The notes beneath the pieces were generated by a model that was given only the letters and a program-made list of their open reading frames with translations, had not been told where the DNA came from and searched no databases. Below, in pieces: positions 1 through 4,557 of a stretch of 64,000 nucleotides of DNA (its first letter is position 1; each line of letters opens with the position of its first letter). This DNA is from Chloroflexota bacterium. Its GTDB lineage: Bacteria; Chloroflexota; Limnocylindria; Limnocylindrales; CSP1-4. The translations under genes were made by a program, and so were the position numbers. Location of the stretch: the NCBI GenBank assembly GCA_021786385.1, contig JAJYNJ010000076.1, positions 1-64,000 of the forward strand, given 5' to 3'.

Positions 1-1631
1 ACGTAGCGCGTCTCCCAGCGCGGCGCGAACTTGTCCTTGAAGAAGGCGAGCCCGGCGACGTCGTAGAAGGGACGCACGAGCCGGGCCACGGCCGCCAGCG
101 CGCGCTCCTCGAGGCGCTGCCCGGCCGGGTCGAGGCCGCTGAGGGGCGCGAGGCCCAACGAGAGCGTCGTCGCGCCGGCGTCGCGGAACCGTTCGGCGGC
201 CTCGGCCAAGCAGAACTCCACCGCGCCCGGCACGCCGCCGGGCACGCGCCGGATCAGGTCGAGCACGTACCCGCCGTCCGCGCCGGTCGAGCGGAACGAG
301 ACGACTGCGGTGGGCGTGCCCCGGGCGTCGAGCGCCACCGCGACCGGGACGCGGCGCAGCTCATCGAGTGAGAAGCGGCTGATGGTGAAGCCCATCTCCG
401 GCGGTCCGCTCTCGGCGTGCCAGGCCGCGTCGACCTGCGCGAGCCCGGGGCCCAGCCGTGCGCTGTCCGCTCCGAGCCCGTCCGGGTACCAGGCGAGCGT
501 CAGGCCGCCGCGCTTCGCCCGCGTGATGGTGTGGCGCAGGTTCGCGCGCCGCGAGCCCGCGAGGCTGAAGCTCGGCAGGTCGATGATCGCCTCGCGGCCG
601 ATCGGCGAGGCCTGGAAGCCGAGCGCGCGCAGCCGCTCCAGGCTCGCCTCGGACGCCTGGTAGACGACCGGCACCCAGTCGTGCTGGCGGCACGCGTCGA
701 CGAACGAGGCGAAGACGAGCCAGCGGTCGCGCTCGCTCCCCACCGGTTCGCCCACCGCCACGGCGACCCGTCCGTCGCGGCCATAGGCCACGAAGCCGTC
801 GCGCCCGGCCGGGCTGTACCAGCGCTTGTCGTCGCTCAACTGGAACGGCAGCAGCGCGCCGCGCCCGTAGCGGCGCGCCAGCTCGCGCACCCGCTCGCGC
901 AGATCGGGCGCCGGCGTGTCGTCGCCCACCGGTCGCAGCATGGCGAGGAGCGCGAGCGCGACGGCCAGGCGCGAGGCGATCGCGAGGGCCAAGATCAGCG
1001 TCGTGCGCGGGCCGGAGGGCGGTCCCGCGAGGTCCCCGAACGCCAGCCAGGCGCTCAGCGTGCGGGCCAGATCGGGCAGGTCGGCTGGCTCGGCGGGCAG
1101 GGCGTCGGCCGGATCGTGCAGGATCACCAGCACGGTCGCGAGCGTCGCGATGGCGGCCCCGGCCAGCAGGAGCCCCCAGCTCGTCCAGCTCCACGTCCGC
1201 GCCGAGCGCACGCCGTAGCGGTTCCGGTCGAGCGTCAAGAGCGCCAGCGCGATCGCCGCCACGACCCCGCCGGCGGTGTGCCCGAGGGCGAGCAACTGGA
1301 GTGGCACGCCCGCGGCGAAGACGAGGATCGCGAGCCACCAGGCGAGCCGTTTGCCGCGGACGAGCCCGATGGTGAGCGCCGCCAACCCGACGGCACTGAG
1401 CGCCGCGATCAGCGGGTCCGCGCTCGGCGTGTCGAACGGGAGCAGCGCCTGGACGCTCGAGAGGCTGGCCGTGCCGAACGCGAAGGCGTCGGAGAGCGCC
1501 ACGAACGCGCCGAGCCCCATCACGACGCGGGGGAGCAGACGTGCCGCCCGCCCGGCCCGGCCCGCGCTCGTCGGGCGCAAGGCGGCGGGGCGGATCGCGG
1601 GCCACCGCACGGCCGGGCGCAGGCGGGCCAT
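1..1631 (-). CDS. MprF-like lipid aminoacyltransferase (DUF2156), 3'-truncated by window edge
   Basis: This gene is not in the ORF track; I translated the minus strand from the ATG at 1631. It stays open to base 1 (about 543 residues). The N-terminal half has several hydrophobic segments (for example GLGAFVALSDAFAFG). The C-terminal half is a DUF2156/GNAT-fold catalytic domain with NLRHTITRAKRGG and, near the edge, FFKDKFAPRWETRY, the usual ending region of phosphatidylglycerol lysyltransferases. Known family members move an amino acid from charged tRNA to a membrane lipid. The amino acid and lipid used here cannot be read from the sequence. The start overlaps the stop of the upstream esterase gene (TGATG), so the two are probably translationally coupled. 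The listed ORFs at 361-1605 and 417-1970 are shadows. Confidence 0.8.
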   Translation of the reverse strand, partial: MARLRPAVRWPAIRPAALRPTSAGRAGRAARLLPRVVMGLGAFVALSDAFAFGTASLSSVQALLPFDTPSADPLIAALSAVGLAALTIGLVRGKRLAWWLAILVFAAGVPLQLLALGHTAGGVVAAIALALLTLDRNRYGVRSARTWSWTSWGLLLAGAAIATLATVLVILHDPADALPAEPADLPDLARTLSAWLAFGDLAGPPSGPRTTLILALAIASRLAVALALLAMLRPVGDDTPAPDLRERVRELARRYGRGALLPFQLSDDKRWYSPAGRDGFVAYGRDGRVAVAVGEPVGSERDRWLVFASFVDACRQHDWVPVVYQASEASLERLRALGFQASPIGREAIIDLPSFSLAGSRRANLRHTITRAKRGGLTLAWYPDGLGADSARLGPGLAQVDAAWHAESGPPEMGFTISRFSLDELRRVPVAVALDARGTPTAVVSFRSTGADGGYVLDLIRRVPGGVPGAVEFCLAEAAERFRDAGATTLSLGLAPLSGLDPAGQRLEERALAAVARLVRPFYDVAGLAFFKDKFAPRWETRY

Positions 1632-3313
1632 CAGCGCAGCACCCCCGTCTGGACTTGCCGTTCCGCGACCGCGCGCAGCGCCGGGATGAACTCCAGGCGG
1701 ACGGCCTTCCAGGCGTGCCCCAGCTGGTTCCACAAGAAGTCGGTCGGATACCCCTCGCGGGTCAGCACCGCGGCAAACTGGCTCGCCTGCTGCCCGAAGA
1801 CGCCCGCGTCCGGCTGGGCCGAGAGGACGATGAAGAGCTGCCGGCGGAGCGCGGGCGGGAGCCGCTCGGCCGTCAGCATCGGCGAGTTCGCCGCCACCAC
1901 GGAGGGGACGTGTCCGAAGGGCATCCAGGCGTTGACCGTCTCGCCGCTGCGCAACCCGGCCACGAAGTAGCCGGAGAAGATGACCGCCTGGTGGAAGACG
2001 TCGGGGTGGCGCAACAGCAGGTTCGCGGCGCAGAACCCACCCTGCGAGAAGCCGGCGATGGTGCGCGCCGCCGGATCGGCGATCGTGCGGAAGCGGCTGT
2101 CGAGCGCGTGCACGACCGTCGCTGACACGTAGGTGTCGGCCCGCTCGCGGCCGTCGTACGAGTCGGCACATTCGCTGTTGGGGAACGGGCCGCCCGCGAG
2201 ATCGACGAAGGCCACGATGGTGGGCGGCAGCGTCCCGTCCGCGATGGCCTGGTCGAGGAGCGCGGCGACATGGATCCCGAGCGCCCAGTGGGCCAGGTCC
2301 CAGGGCACGGTGTACACCACCGGGTAGCGCTGGGTGCCGGTCGCGTAGCCCGCTGGCAGGTAGAGCCAGACCGTCGAGCTCGATCGCCGCCCGTCATACC
2401 AGGGCGAGGGGAGCGTGAAGGCCACGACCTGGCCGCGCCCGGTGGGGCGCGCGTTGGCCCACGGTTGGGTCGAGGCGATCGCTCCGCCGCTCGCCGATCC
2501 GTTCGTCACGGCGCCCCCGTCGGCGCCGCCAGCGCCGGTCCCAGGGCCAGCCGCTACGCCGATCGGCCCGCTTCCCGCCGCACCGTTCCCTCCACCCGAC
2601 CCGACACCCGAGCGCCCACTGCCGGTGTCGCCCCCGACGAGCGGCGGGGCCTGCAGGATGGCCCCTCCGGTCATCGCCACGTCGGGGGTGTAGTTGATCA
2701 TGTCCGCGAAGGTGGGGAGCGAGCCGAGCACCACGGCGAGCGCCAAGAGCGGCGCCAGCGTCCGGAGCAGCCGGCGCCGATCCAGGCGGTCCTGGCCGCG
2801 CCAGTCGGCCAGCAGCGCCCAGCCGCCTCGTAGCCAGCGCCGCACCTCGATCGCGAGGGTGGCCATGGCCCAGCCGGTGACGAGGCCGGCCGAGGCGAGG
2901 GTCACGAGCGTGGCCAGCCAGCCGAGCGGCTCGAAGCCCTGCGGCCCATGCGTCGCGATCGCACTGGCCGTCTCGTCGAGGAACGTCCGTCCGAAGACGA
3001 CGGCGAGGCCGAGATACCCCACGATGATCGGCCCGAGGCGCCCGCCGGCCGCGAGCGCGGCGAGGGCGGCGCCGAGCCCTCCGGCGGTCAAGCCGGTGAT
3101 CAGCCGGGCACGGTCCGGATCGAAGCCCATCACCTCGAGGGCCGTGTCGGACCCCGCGAGCGCGCCGGCCAGGCGCAGCGCGACGATCAGGGCAGCGCCG
3201 ATCGCCACGCCGACGAGGGGTCGCCAGACGGCGCGGACGACGGCAGGGGAGCGCCGCGACGCGCGGGCGCGCTGCCTCGCGAACGCCCCGACCAGATCGA
3301 GTACGCCTGACAT
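1631..3313 (-). CDS. membrane-anchored alpha/beta-hydrolase esterase
   Basis: Starting at MSGVLDLVGAFARQ the protein is about 560 residues. The N-terminal ~200 residues carry about five hydrophobic segments, followed by a Gly/Ala/Ser-rich linker. A putative esterase domain (esterase D / antigen 85-like family) follows, with YLPAGYATGTQRYPVVY, the nucleophile elbow GFSQGG and a late His in LGHAWKAV. The domain is expected outside the membrane because it follows the helices and linker, but the topology was not computed. The stop overlaps the start of the MprF-like gene. Esterases beside aminoacyl-lipid synthases are known to remove the aminoacyl group (for example AcvB/VirJ-type enzymes), so this may be the counterpart hydrolase; that is inference. 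An upstream start at 3391 (MSPVLVIRK) overlaps the previous stop and is possible. Confidence 0.72.
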   Translation of the reverse strand: MSGVLDLVGAFARQRARASRRSPAVVRAVWRPLVGVAIGAALIVALRLAGALAGSDTALEVMGFDPDRARLITGLTAGGLGAALAALAAGGRLGPIIVGYLGLAVVFGRTFLDETASAIATHGPQGFEPLGWLATLVTLASAGLVTGWAMATLAIEVRRWLRGGWALLADWRGQDRLDRRRLLRTLAPLLALAVVLGSLPTFADMINYTPDVAMTGGAILQAPPLVGGDTGSGRSGVGSGGGNGAAGSGPIGVAAGPGTGAGGADGGAVTNGSASGGAIASTQPWANARPTGRGQVVAFTLPSPWYDGRRSSSTVWLYLPAGYATGTQRYPVVYTVPWDLAHWALGIHVAALLDQAIADGTLPPTIVAFVDLAGGPFPNSECADSYDGRERADTYVSATVVHALDSRFRTIADPAARTIAGFSQGGFCAANLLLRHPDVFHQAVIFSGYFVAGLRSGETVNAWMPFGHVPSVVAANSPMLTAERLPPALRRQLFIVLSAQPDAGVFGQQASQFAAVLTREGYPTDFLWNQLGHAWKAVRLEFIPALRAVAERQVQTGVLR

Positions 3314-3390: not shown

Positions 3391-4428
3391 TCAATAATGC
3401 GGGTTGGTGGCGATCCTCCCGTGGCTCGCTGCCGGCGCGTATGTGGCGTTGCCGGTGAACTTCACCCAATACGCGGTCCAGCCGTTGACGCGTGCGAAGT
3501 AGTGCACTGTTCCGTCCGCGGCTACCCGCCGCAGCGTCAACTGACGCCAGCCGCTCGTCTTCGACGCGACCCAGATCTGCACCAGTGAGCCCGCAAGGTT
3601 CGGGCTCGTCCGCACGAGGACCGTGACGTAGCTGTCGCGGGCCACGGCTAGGCTCCGCGTGCCGAAGCCGGACGTTCCGCGATTGACGCCGGAGGCGACG
3701 GCGTCGGTGGGCGAGACCGGCGTGCGGGTGCCGCCCCCGACGTAGAACGGCTTGCTGGTGGCAGCGGCATAAGCCGCGCTGCTCGTAGCGGTGAGCGTGT
3801 AGAGGTTCGCAGAGCCCCGGGTGATCCTGCAGCCGAAGAACGTGGCGACGCCCTTTACGATCCTGCGGCCCGTGCCGCTCGTGCAGGAGAGCATGCCCAC
3901 CGCCGGGTTAGTCCCGATCGAGAGAGTGACGACCGTCGAGTTGTCCGTCGTGGCGATCTGGTTGGCCGCGCTGACGACCTCCACCACCGGCTGCTGCGCC
4001 CAGACGGTCCCGGTCGCCCCGCCGCCCGGCTGGGTGGCGAAGTAGAGGTGGTTGGTAGCCCGATTGACCGTGAGCGTGAACGGCTGTACCGCGCTGGGGT
4101 TGGTCCCGTTCGCGGCAGTGATCCGGATCGGATACGTCCCGTTGGTCGACGGGGCGGGGGTGCCCGCCAGGGTAGCGGTGCCGGTGTGGTGGTCGGTGAA
4201 CGTCACCCCGGCGGGGAGAGCGCCCGTCTCGCCGAGCAAGGGGGCCGGCGCCCCGGTCGTGGTGACGCGGAAGGTACCCGCCACGCCCACCGTGAAGGTC
4301 GTGCTCTTGGCGCTCGTGACGGCGGGCGCGACGGCGGACGCCGCGAGAACTCCCGAGGGCAACAGTCCGACGACGAGCAATGCCCCACCCAACATAGCTG
4401 CGAGGCGCCGGTTGAAGAGGCCAAACAT
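3391..4428 (-). CDS. secreted protein with putative Ig-like domains
   Basis: The start MFGLFNRRLAAML at 4428 is chosen because AGGAGG lies about 7 bases upstream; the track start is 15 codons earlier. A signal peptide is clear (LGGALLVVGLLPSGVLAASA). The mature part begins with a stretch like putative immunoglobulin (He_PIG) domains: TFRVTTTGAPAPLL, LPAGVTFTDHHTGTATLAGTP, then PIRITAANGTNPSAVQPFTLTV. The rest is beta-rich with no catalytic motif that I recognise, and there is no LPXTG-like anchor. It is probably an extracellular adhesion or structural protein. The stop shares a base with a possible upstream start of the esterase gene, so it may be in the same transcript. Function unknown. Confidence 0.65.
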   Translation of the reverse strand: MFGLFNRRLAAMLGGALLVVGLLPSGVLAASAVAPAVTSAKSTTFTVGVAGTFRVTTTGAPAPLLGETGALPAGVTFTDHHTGTATLAGTPAPSTNGTYPIRITAANGTNPSAVQPFTLTVNRATNHLYFATQPGGGATGTVWAQQPVVEVVSAANQIATTDNSTVVTLSIGTNPAVGMLSCTSGTGRRIVKGVATFFGCRITRGSANLYTLTATSSAAYAAATSKPFYVGGGTRTPVSPTDAVASGVNRGTSGFGTRSLAVARDSYVTVLVRTSPNLAGSLVQIWVASKTSGWRQLTLRRVAADGTVHYFARVNGWTAYWVKFTGNATYAPAASHGRIATNPHY

Positions 4429-4557
4429 CTCACATCCTCCTGGAGAGCCGCATCGCGTTGGCATGGGGAGCACTGGAAGCGCGAGTCGGGACGTCGCGAG
4501 CGCTGGGGGACCGGGCGAACGGTGGCGCGACGGTGGACCACGAGCTACCGCGCATGC

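Follow-up and report, generated by a model that had tools for sequence, protein, structure and literature searches.

Membrane charge depends on aminoacylated lipids, as does resistance to cationic peptides. According to a 2015 abstract by Smith and colleagues, formation of alanyl-phosphatidylglycerol (Ala-PG) reportedly requires two proteins, a synthase and a putative esterase whose gene lies upstream. The nearest described system is the PesT-AlaDAGS pair of Corynebacterium glutamicum (Smith et al. 2015, Mol Microbiol 98:681, as relayed in PMC10580965), in which a putative esterase gene is paired with an MprF homologue. As relayed in passages of PMC10580965, C. glutamicum pesT is reportedly needed to make Ala-PG; these passages also describe a pesT alaDAGS double mutant without the genes that make Ala-DAG and Ala-PG, contain the proposal of a transferase moving the aminoacyl group from aminoacyl-diacylglycerol (aa-DAG) to phosphatidylglycerol (PG), postulate a “secondary enzyme” for Lys-PG, and cite Smith 2013 for a hydrolase of aminoacyl-PG in Enterococcus faecium. 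In mycobacteria, disruption of Rv1639c/MMAR_2446, which lies downstream of lysX, left lysyl-DAG unchanged (PMC12637418, a preprint). In proteobacteria, AcvB is an eraser encoded in the operon of its synthase (PMC13197417), in line with one of the loci sampled here (L287).

The window, the whole stretch of 64,000 nucleotides that was analysed, begins with a pair of genes on the minus strand, of which the upstream gene encodes a membrane-anchored esterase and the downstream gene an MprF-type synthase (Table 1). Both reading frames and their one-base TGATG overlap were located as the first-pass annotation had described them, and the GFSQGG motif that it had named in the esterase occupies residues 421 to 426.

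Table 1. Features of the esterase-synthase gene pair (window coordinates).
Feature	Position	Strand	Remarks
Membrane-anchored CE1/PF00756 esterase or acyltransferase (P0001)	1631..3313	-	560 aa
Esterase start and stop	ATG at 3313, TGA at 1633-1631	-	
N-terminal membrane domain, aa 33-201	2711..3217	-	About five TM helices; model and positive-inside loops
Gly/Ser/Ala-rich low-confidence linker, aa 204-270	2504..2704	-	pLDDT < 50
Alpha/beta-hydrolase (CE1-like) domain, aa 294-558	1640..2434	-	Pfam, model, Foldseek
Cys382 codon	2168..2170	-	Invariant, with Cys428, in window class and actinobacterial PesT-type esterases
Putative nucleophile Ser423 codon	2045..2047	-	In GFSQGG; invariant in family
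Cys428 codon (Ser+5)	2030..2032	-	Invariant; likely disulfide partner of Cys382
Putative catalytic His533 codon	1715..1717	-	Kept in 35/36 and 54/54
TGATG stop-start overlap	1629..1633	-	One base; translational coupling
MprF-type aminoacyl-lipid synthase (P0002)	1..1631	-	Synthase half only; 543 aa seen
Synthase start codon ATG	1631-1629	-	
Synthase membrane part, aa ~32-232	936..1538	-	Aligned to synthase half of full-length MprF
PF09924 aminoacyl-tRNA-dependent transferase (GNAT-like) domain, aa 266-543	3..836	-	

The window and its contig (C72) start at the same base, so the synthase is cut by the contig end. Two further contigs of the same genome, C18 and C83, have the last ~125 bp in common with this end of the synthase, and each extends the protein by about 50-60 residues to its C-terminus. 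The two synthase C-termini are near-identical and diverge completely right past the stop codon, so that an assembly fork lies within the 3′ end of the gene (window 1-125; in G000, the start of C18 and the end of C83). Besides these two end fragments, no other synthase of this kind was found in the genome. On C18, a PF03706 flippase-like gene is located 0.6 kb downstream of the synthase end. We did not count it as a third gene of the module, since C83 offers an alternative continuation to C18 and no such gene occurs nearby in relatives. On the other side of the pair, the gene at 3391-4473 (4473..3391) encodes a probable secreted protein with Ig-like repeats; it was rejected as an operon member, having no homologue near the pairs of the relatives.

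The synthase matches Pfam PF09924 (LPG_synthase_C, 1.1e-62), and its closest solved structures are MprF/LpiA and the Ala-PG and Lys-PG synthases (PDB 7f47, 2.6e-38). The alignment to 7f47 covers positions 342-837 only, which correspond to the C-terminal half of full-length MprF, and the match to NF033480 starts at position 325 of 841 and reaches 228 bits against a cut-off of 600. By both comparisons, the window synthase has the PF09924 synthase domain and lacks the N-terminal flippase half of bifunctional MprF. It also lacks a LysX-type C-terminal lysyl-tRNA synthetase, given that the ends on C18 and C83 supply only the short stretch mentioned above. In a quick tree with some long branches, the synthases of the window class group in a single clade (SH-aLRT 100) and are separated from the esterase-linked synthases of actinobacteria as well as from LysX and canonical MprF. 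Members of a single esterase family thus appear to have synthases of several lineages as partners.

The esterase matches Pfam PF00756 (Esterase, 1.8e-17). In its AlphaFold2 model (mean pLDDT 86), the helices fit five TM segments, the linker at residues 204-270 is disordered, and the alpha/beta-hydrolase domain is confident. Because the Arg-rich segments of the protein are found at the N-terminus and between TM4 and TM5 (7 and 8 K/R), the positive-inside rule would place the hydrolase domain outside the cytoplasm. The top Foldseek matches of the model are CE1 feruloyl esterases, with 5vol first. Ser423 is invariant in the alignment, partly by construction, as the sequence set was partly filtered on the GxSxGG motif, while His533 is kept in 35 of 36 proteins of the class and in all 54 actinobacterial ones. 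Cys382 and Cys428, which likely form a disulfide, are present in 36/36 class and 54/54 actinobacterial proteins versus 0/19 generic CE1 proteins. The triad acid is expected to follow strand 7 (aa 498-503 of P0001, window ~1803-1822); by alignment, the residue there is D or E in 54/54 actinobacterial proteins and variable in the window class.

To what extent the two genes belong together was evident from the class-wide search of 177 genomes, in which PF09924 exceeded the cut-off in 30, the source genome included, and strong esterase matches fell in the same genomes. Within the window class, relatives contributed 31 synthase loci, and in 30 of them the esterase is adjacent and on the same strand; this count used wider flanks, and the single exception (L091) stops at a contig edge. 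The esterase gene comes first in 12 of the 30 loci and the synthase gene in 18. In 24 of the 30, the downstream gene has a possible start codon, as distinct from a determined true start, whose overlap with the stop of the upstream gene is 4 bases long. Pairing at this frequency far exceeds what chance would give. The linkage is near-complete in the class and patchy elsewhere in the phylum, where 4 of 20 sampled synthase loci have an adjacent esterase. The coupling of an MprF-type synthase to a membrane-anchored serine esterase, as claimed in the first-pass annotation, is therefore conserved across the class, and the rare linkage in relatives that the annotation had named as the result to speak against it was not found there.

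Three synthase-linked esterases from outside the class (L355, L358, and L370) have EWG(N/D) near the place of the cysteine pair, which they lack. The pair was rejected as a mark of all synthase-linked esterases because Rubrobacter lacks it, as do three or more of the four linked loci sampled elsewhere in the phylum. Esterase paralogues were also observed, some in tandem with the pair and some synthase-free (L082, L083, L085, L087, L092, L101, and L095, the last at G000:C13:3374-4444); genome G041 has about six of them.

Beyond the phylum, relatives of the esterase were found beside several other synthases. A genome scan with actinobacterial synthases yielded 80 named loci; in 11 of them, from Pseudonocardia, Gordonia, Williamsia, and Pseudoclavibacter, the gene immediately upstream encodes a membrane esterase. 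Of 40 esterase loci from the family around Williamsia, chosen solely for similarity of the esterase, 19 carry a PF09924 gene next to it on the same strand; these include small genomes that resemble Corynebacterium in size and GC content. In these small genomes and in Pseudonocardia, Gordonia, and Williamsia, the esterase upstream of the PF09924 gene has the membrane anchor, the CE1 domain, and the Cys382/Cys428 pair. The window class, the actinobacterial type, and Rubrobacter form one clade against generic CE1 proteins in the esterase tree (local support 1.0), and a profile comparison of the window esterase with the actinobacterial alignment gave a 97.5% probability over the hydrolase domain. 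The actinobacterial model, with four TM helices and a CE1 domain, matches both 5vol and antigen 85 (Ag85); it and the window model have the CE1 fold and the same best PDB match, 5vol.

Compared with PesT-AlaDAGS, the window has the same arrangement, a PF00756 gene directly adjacent to and upstream of a PF09924 gene. Its esterase is of the PesT type by its multi-TM anchor, its clade, and its cysteine pair, where PesT membership was judged on architecture and synteny in the actinobacterial relatives that stood in for C. glutamicum; these carry a membrane-anchored PF00756 esterase of the same clade upstream of the synthase. However, the window esterase has five TM helices instead of the four of the actinobacterial type, and its triad acid is not conserved. 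The window synthase, placed in a clade of its own in the synthase tree, is not of the AlaDAGS type; it is short, without the long N-terminal part of the actinobacterial partner, and the gene order is inverted in many relatives of the window class.

The mycobacterial LysX is a PF09924 lysyl-DAG synthase with an adjacent PesT-type esterase (downstream Rv1639c) that has the same cysteine pair, but LysX carries a lysyl-tRNA synthetase domain, and its esterase is ~20% identical overall to the window esterase. Such an esterase adjoins LysX in five sampled loci of mycobacteria-like genomes (L265, L375, L377, L381, and L382; PF09924, PF16995, and LysRS), which probably correspond to Rv1640c-Rv1639c, and it is a candidate for the second enzyme postulated in Lys-PG synthesis. 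One Corynebacterium-like genome has a PesT-type esterase directly upstream of a full bifunctional MprF (L227:1503-5601; NF033480, 777 bits). The best plasmid match of the window esterase lies in an esterase-synthase-flippase cluster of Rubrobacter radiotolerans (L106), which has a PF00756 esterase and a short synthase in the same order, but its esterase lacks the cysteine pair and the multi-TM domain, and a separate flippase gene follows. The Ag85 mycolyltransferases and CE1 feruloyl esterases resemble the window esterase in fold and in Ser/His; they differ in having no membrane domain and no synthase partner, and the similarity is remote, with no match to Ag85 by single sequence and weak profile matches only (4e-5). 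The proteobacterial LpiA/MprF-AcvB system (VirJ family) likewise combines a synthase and a serine hydrolase outside the cytoplasm in one operon. AcvB, however, is a soluble periplasmic PF06057 protein with two alpha/beta-hydrolase domains and without sequence similarity to the window esterase. An AcvB/VirJ kinship, a comparison proposed in the first-pass annotation, was rejected: the esterase has no PF06057 match at E 0.1, whereas AcvB beside a proteobacterial mprF (L287), the positive control, scored 1.9e-84; BLASTP gave E 0.6, and the profile search was negative.

We propose, at about even chances, that the two enzymes make up an aminoacyl-lipid module of the PesT-AlaDAGS kind in which the esterase acts as a second-step aminoacyl transferase. 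Working on the cytoplasmic side with aminoacyl-tRNA as donor, the synthase would esterify a lipid, presumably diacylglycerol or phosphatidylglycerol, with the amino acid. The co-translated esterase would act on the aminoacyl ester from the outer face and form an acyl-enzyme at Ser423. Most likely it would do more than hydrolyse the ester and, in line with the proposal for the C. glutamicum pathway, pass the aminoacyl group to a second lipid, e.g., PG (aa-DAG + PG -> aa-PG + DAG). Being neutral, aa-DAG could move across the membrane with no dedicated flippase to help it, which would be in keeping with a synthase that has no flippase half. The proposal draws on the adjacency and co-direction of the two genes in the class, in both orders and mostly with possible overlapping starts; on the occurrence of the same esterase type, in one clade, upstream of actinobacterial PF09924 genes; on the 5vol match of both models and the Ag85 acyltransferase match of the actinobacterial one; on the double mutant and the aa-DAG-to-PG transferase proposed in the passages of PMC10580965; and on the unchanged lysyl-DAG after disruption of the lysX-linked gene (PMC12637418). 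Some observations count against the proposal: the partner at L227 is a full MprF, a type that makes aa-PG directly, so that a DAG-to-PG transfer would be unneeded there; the triad acid varies among proteins of the window class; and many esterases of the family have no adjacent synthase.

Alternatively, the esterase may be an eraser that tunes lipid charge by hydrolysing, on the outer leaflet, the aminoacyl ester that the synthase has made. Its function would then match that of AcvB or of the E. faecium aminoacyl-PG hydrolase, although it is not in the AcvB family. We regard this eraser role as the main rival to transfer, though less likely. The strict coupling of the synthase with an extracytoplasmic serine hydrolase, the nearest solved structures being esterases and hence hydrolases, the canonical MprF as one partner (L227), and the precedent of AcvB for erasers within synthase operons (PMC13197417; L287) are consistent with it. 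On the other hand, there is no homology to AcvB/VirJ, the nearest described partner gene has a role in making Ala-PG according to the passages of PMC10580965, and disruption of the lysX-linked gene brought no rise in lysyl-DAG (PMC12637418), which is unexpected for the loss of its main eraser. We ranked transfer above hydrolysis because of the published role of that nearest partner gene. For the first-pass annotation, which had read the locus as a writer/eraser pair, this means that the writer and its coupled esterase stand, while an eraser as the default does not, given its actinobacterial PesT-type kin and the reported need for pesT in making Ala-PG in C. glutamicum. Nor is an occurrence outside proteobacteria, which the annotation had called of interest, new by itself, since the E. 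faecium hydrolase is cited in the same passages.

An action of the esterase on another envelope ester (an acyl- or glycolipid, as for Ag85), with mere co-regulation in an envelope-stress operon, appears unlikely. PF00756 substrates are very diverse, a genome may hold up to about six paralogues away from any synthase, and the pair is present at few of the sampled phylum loci outside the class (4/20); yet the pairing survives gene-order inversion with start-stop overlap and is found with four kinds of PF09924 synthase, which is more than co-regulation needs. That the pair reflects chance neighbours or an assembly artefact, as a synthase at a contig end with an assembly fork might suggest, is refuted by conservation, the pair being intact in 30 other loci, and has a negligible probability.

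The PesT-AlaDAGS arrangement is already known, and the comparisons made here point to its presence in another bacterial group with a distinct synthase lineage and an invertible gene order. Because the module is kept through order inversion with start-stop overlap, the esterase would belong to lipid aminoacylation chemistry. Tentatively, and with a good deal less confidence than for the transferase role in the window, we suggest a general second step, in which one membrane-anchored CE1-type family provides outer-leaflet aminoacyl transferases for MprF-family synthases of four or more kinds (those of the window class and of actinobacteria, LysX, and canonical MprF) in at least two phyla, the mycobacterial lysX-linked gene included. 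The occurrence of this esterase type at LysX and canonical MprF loci offers a concrete candidate for the “secondary enzyme” of Lys-PG mentioned in the passages of PMC10580965. If the esterase is indeed a transferase, aminoacylated PG could form on the outer face of the membrane without the MprF flippase.
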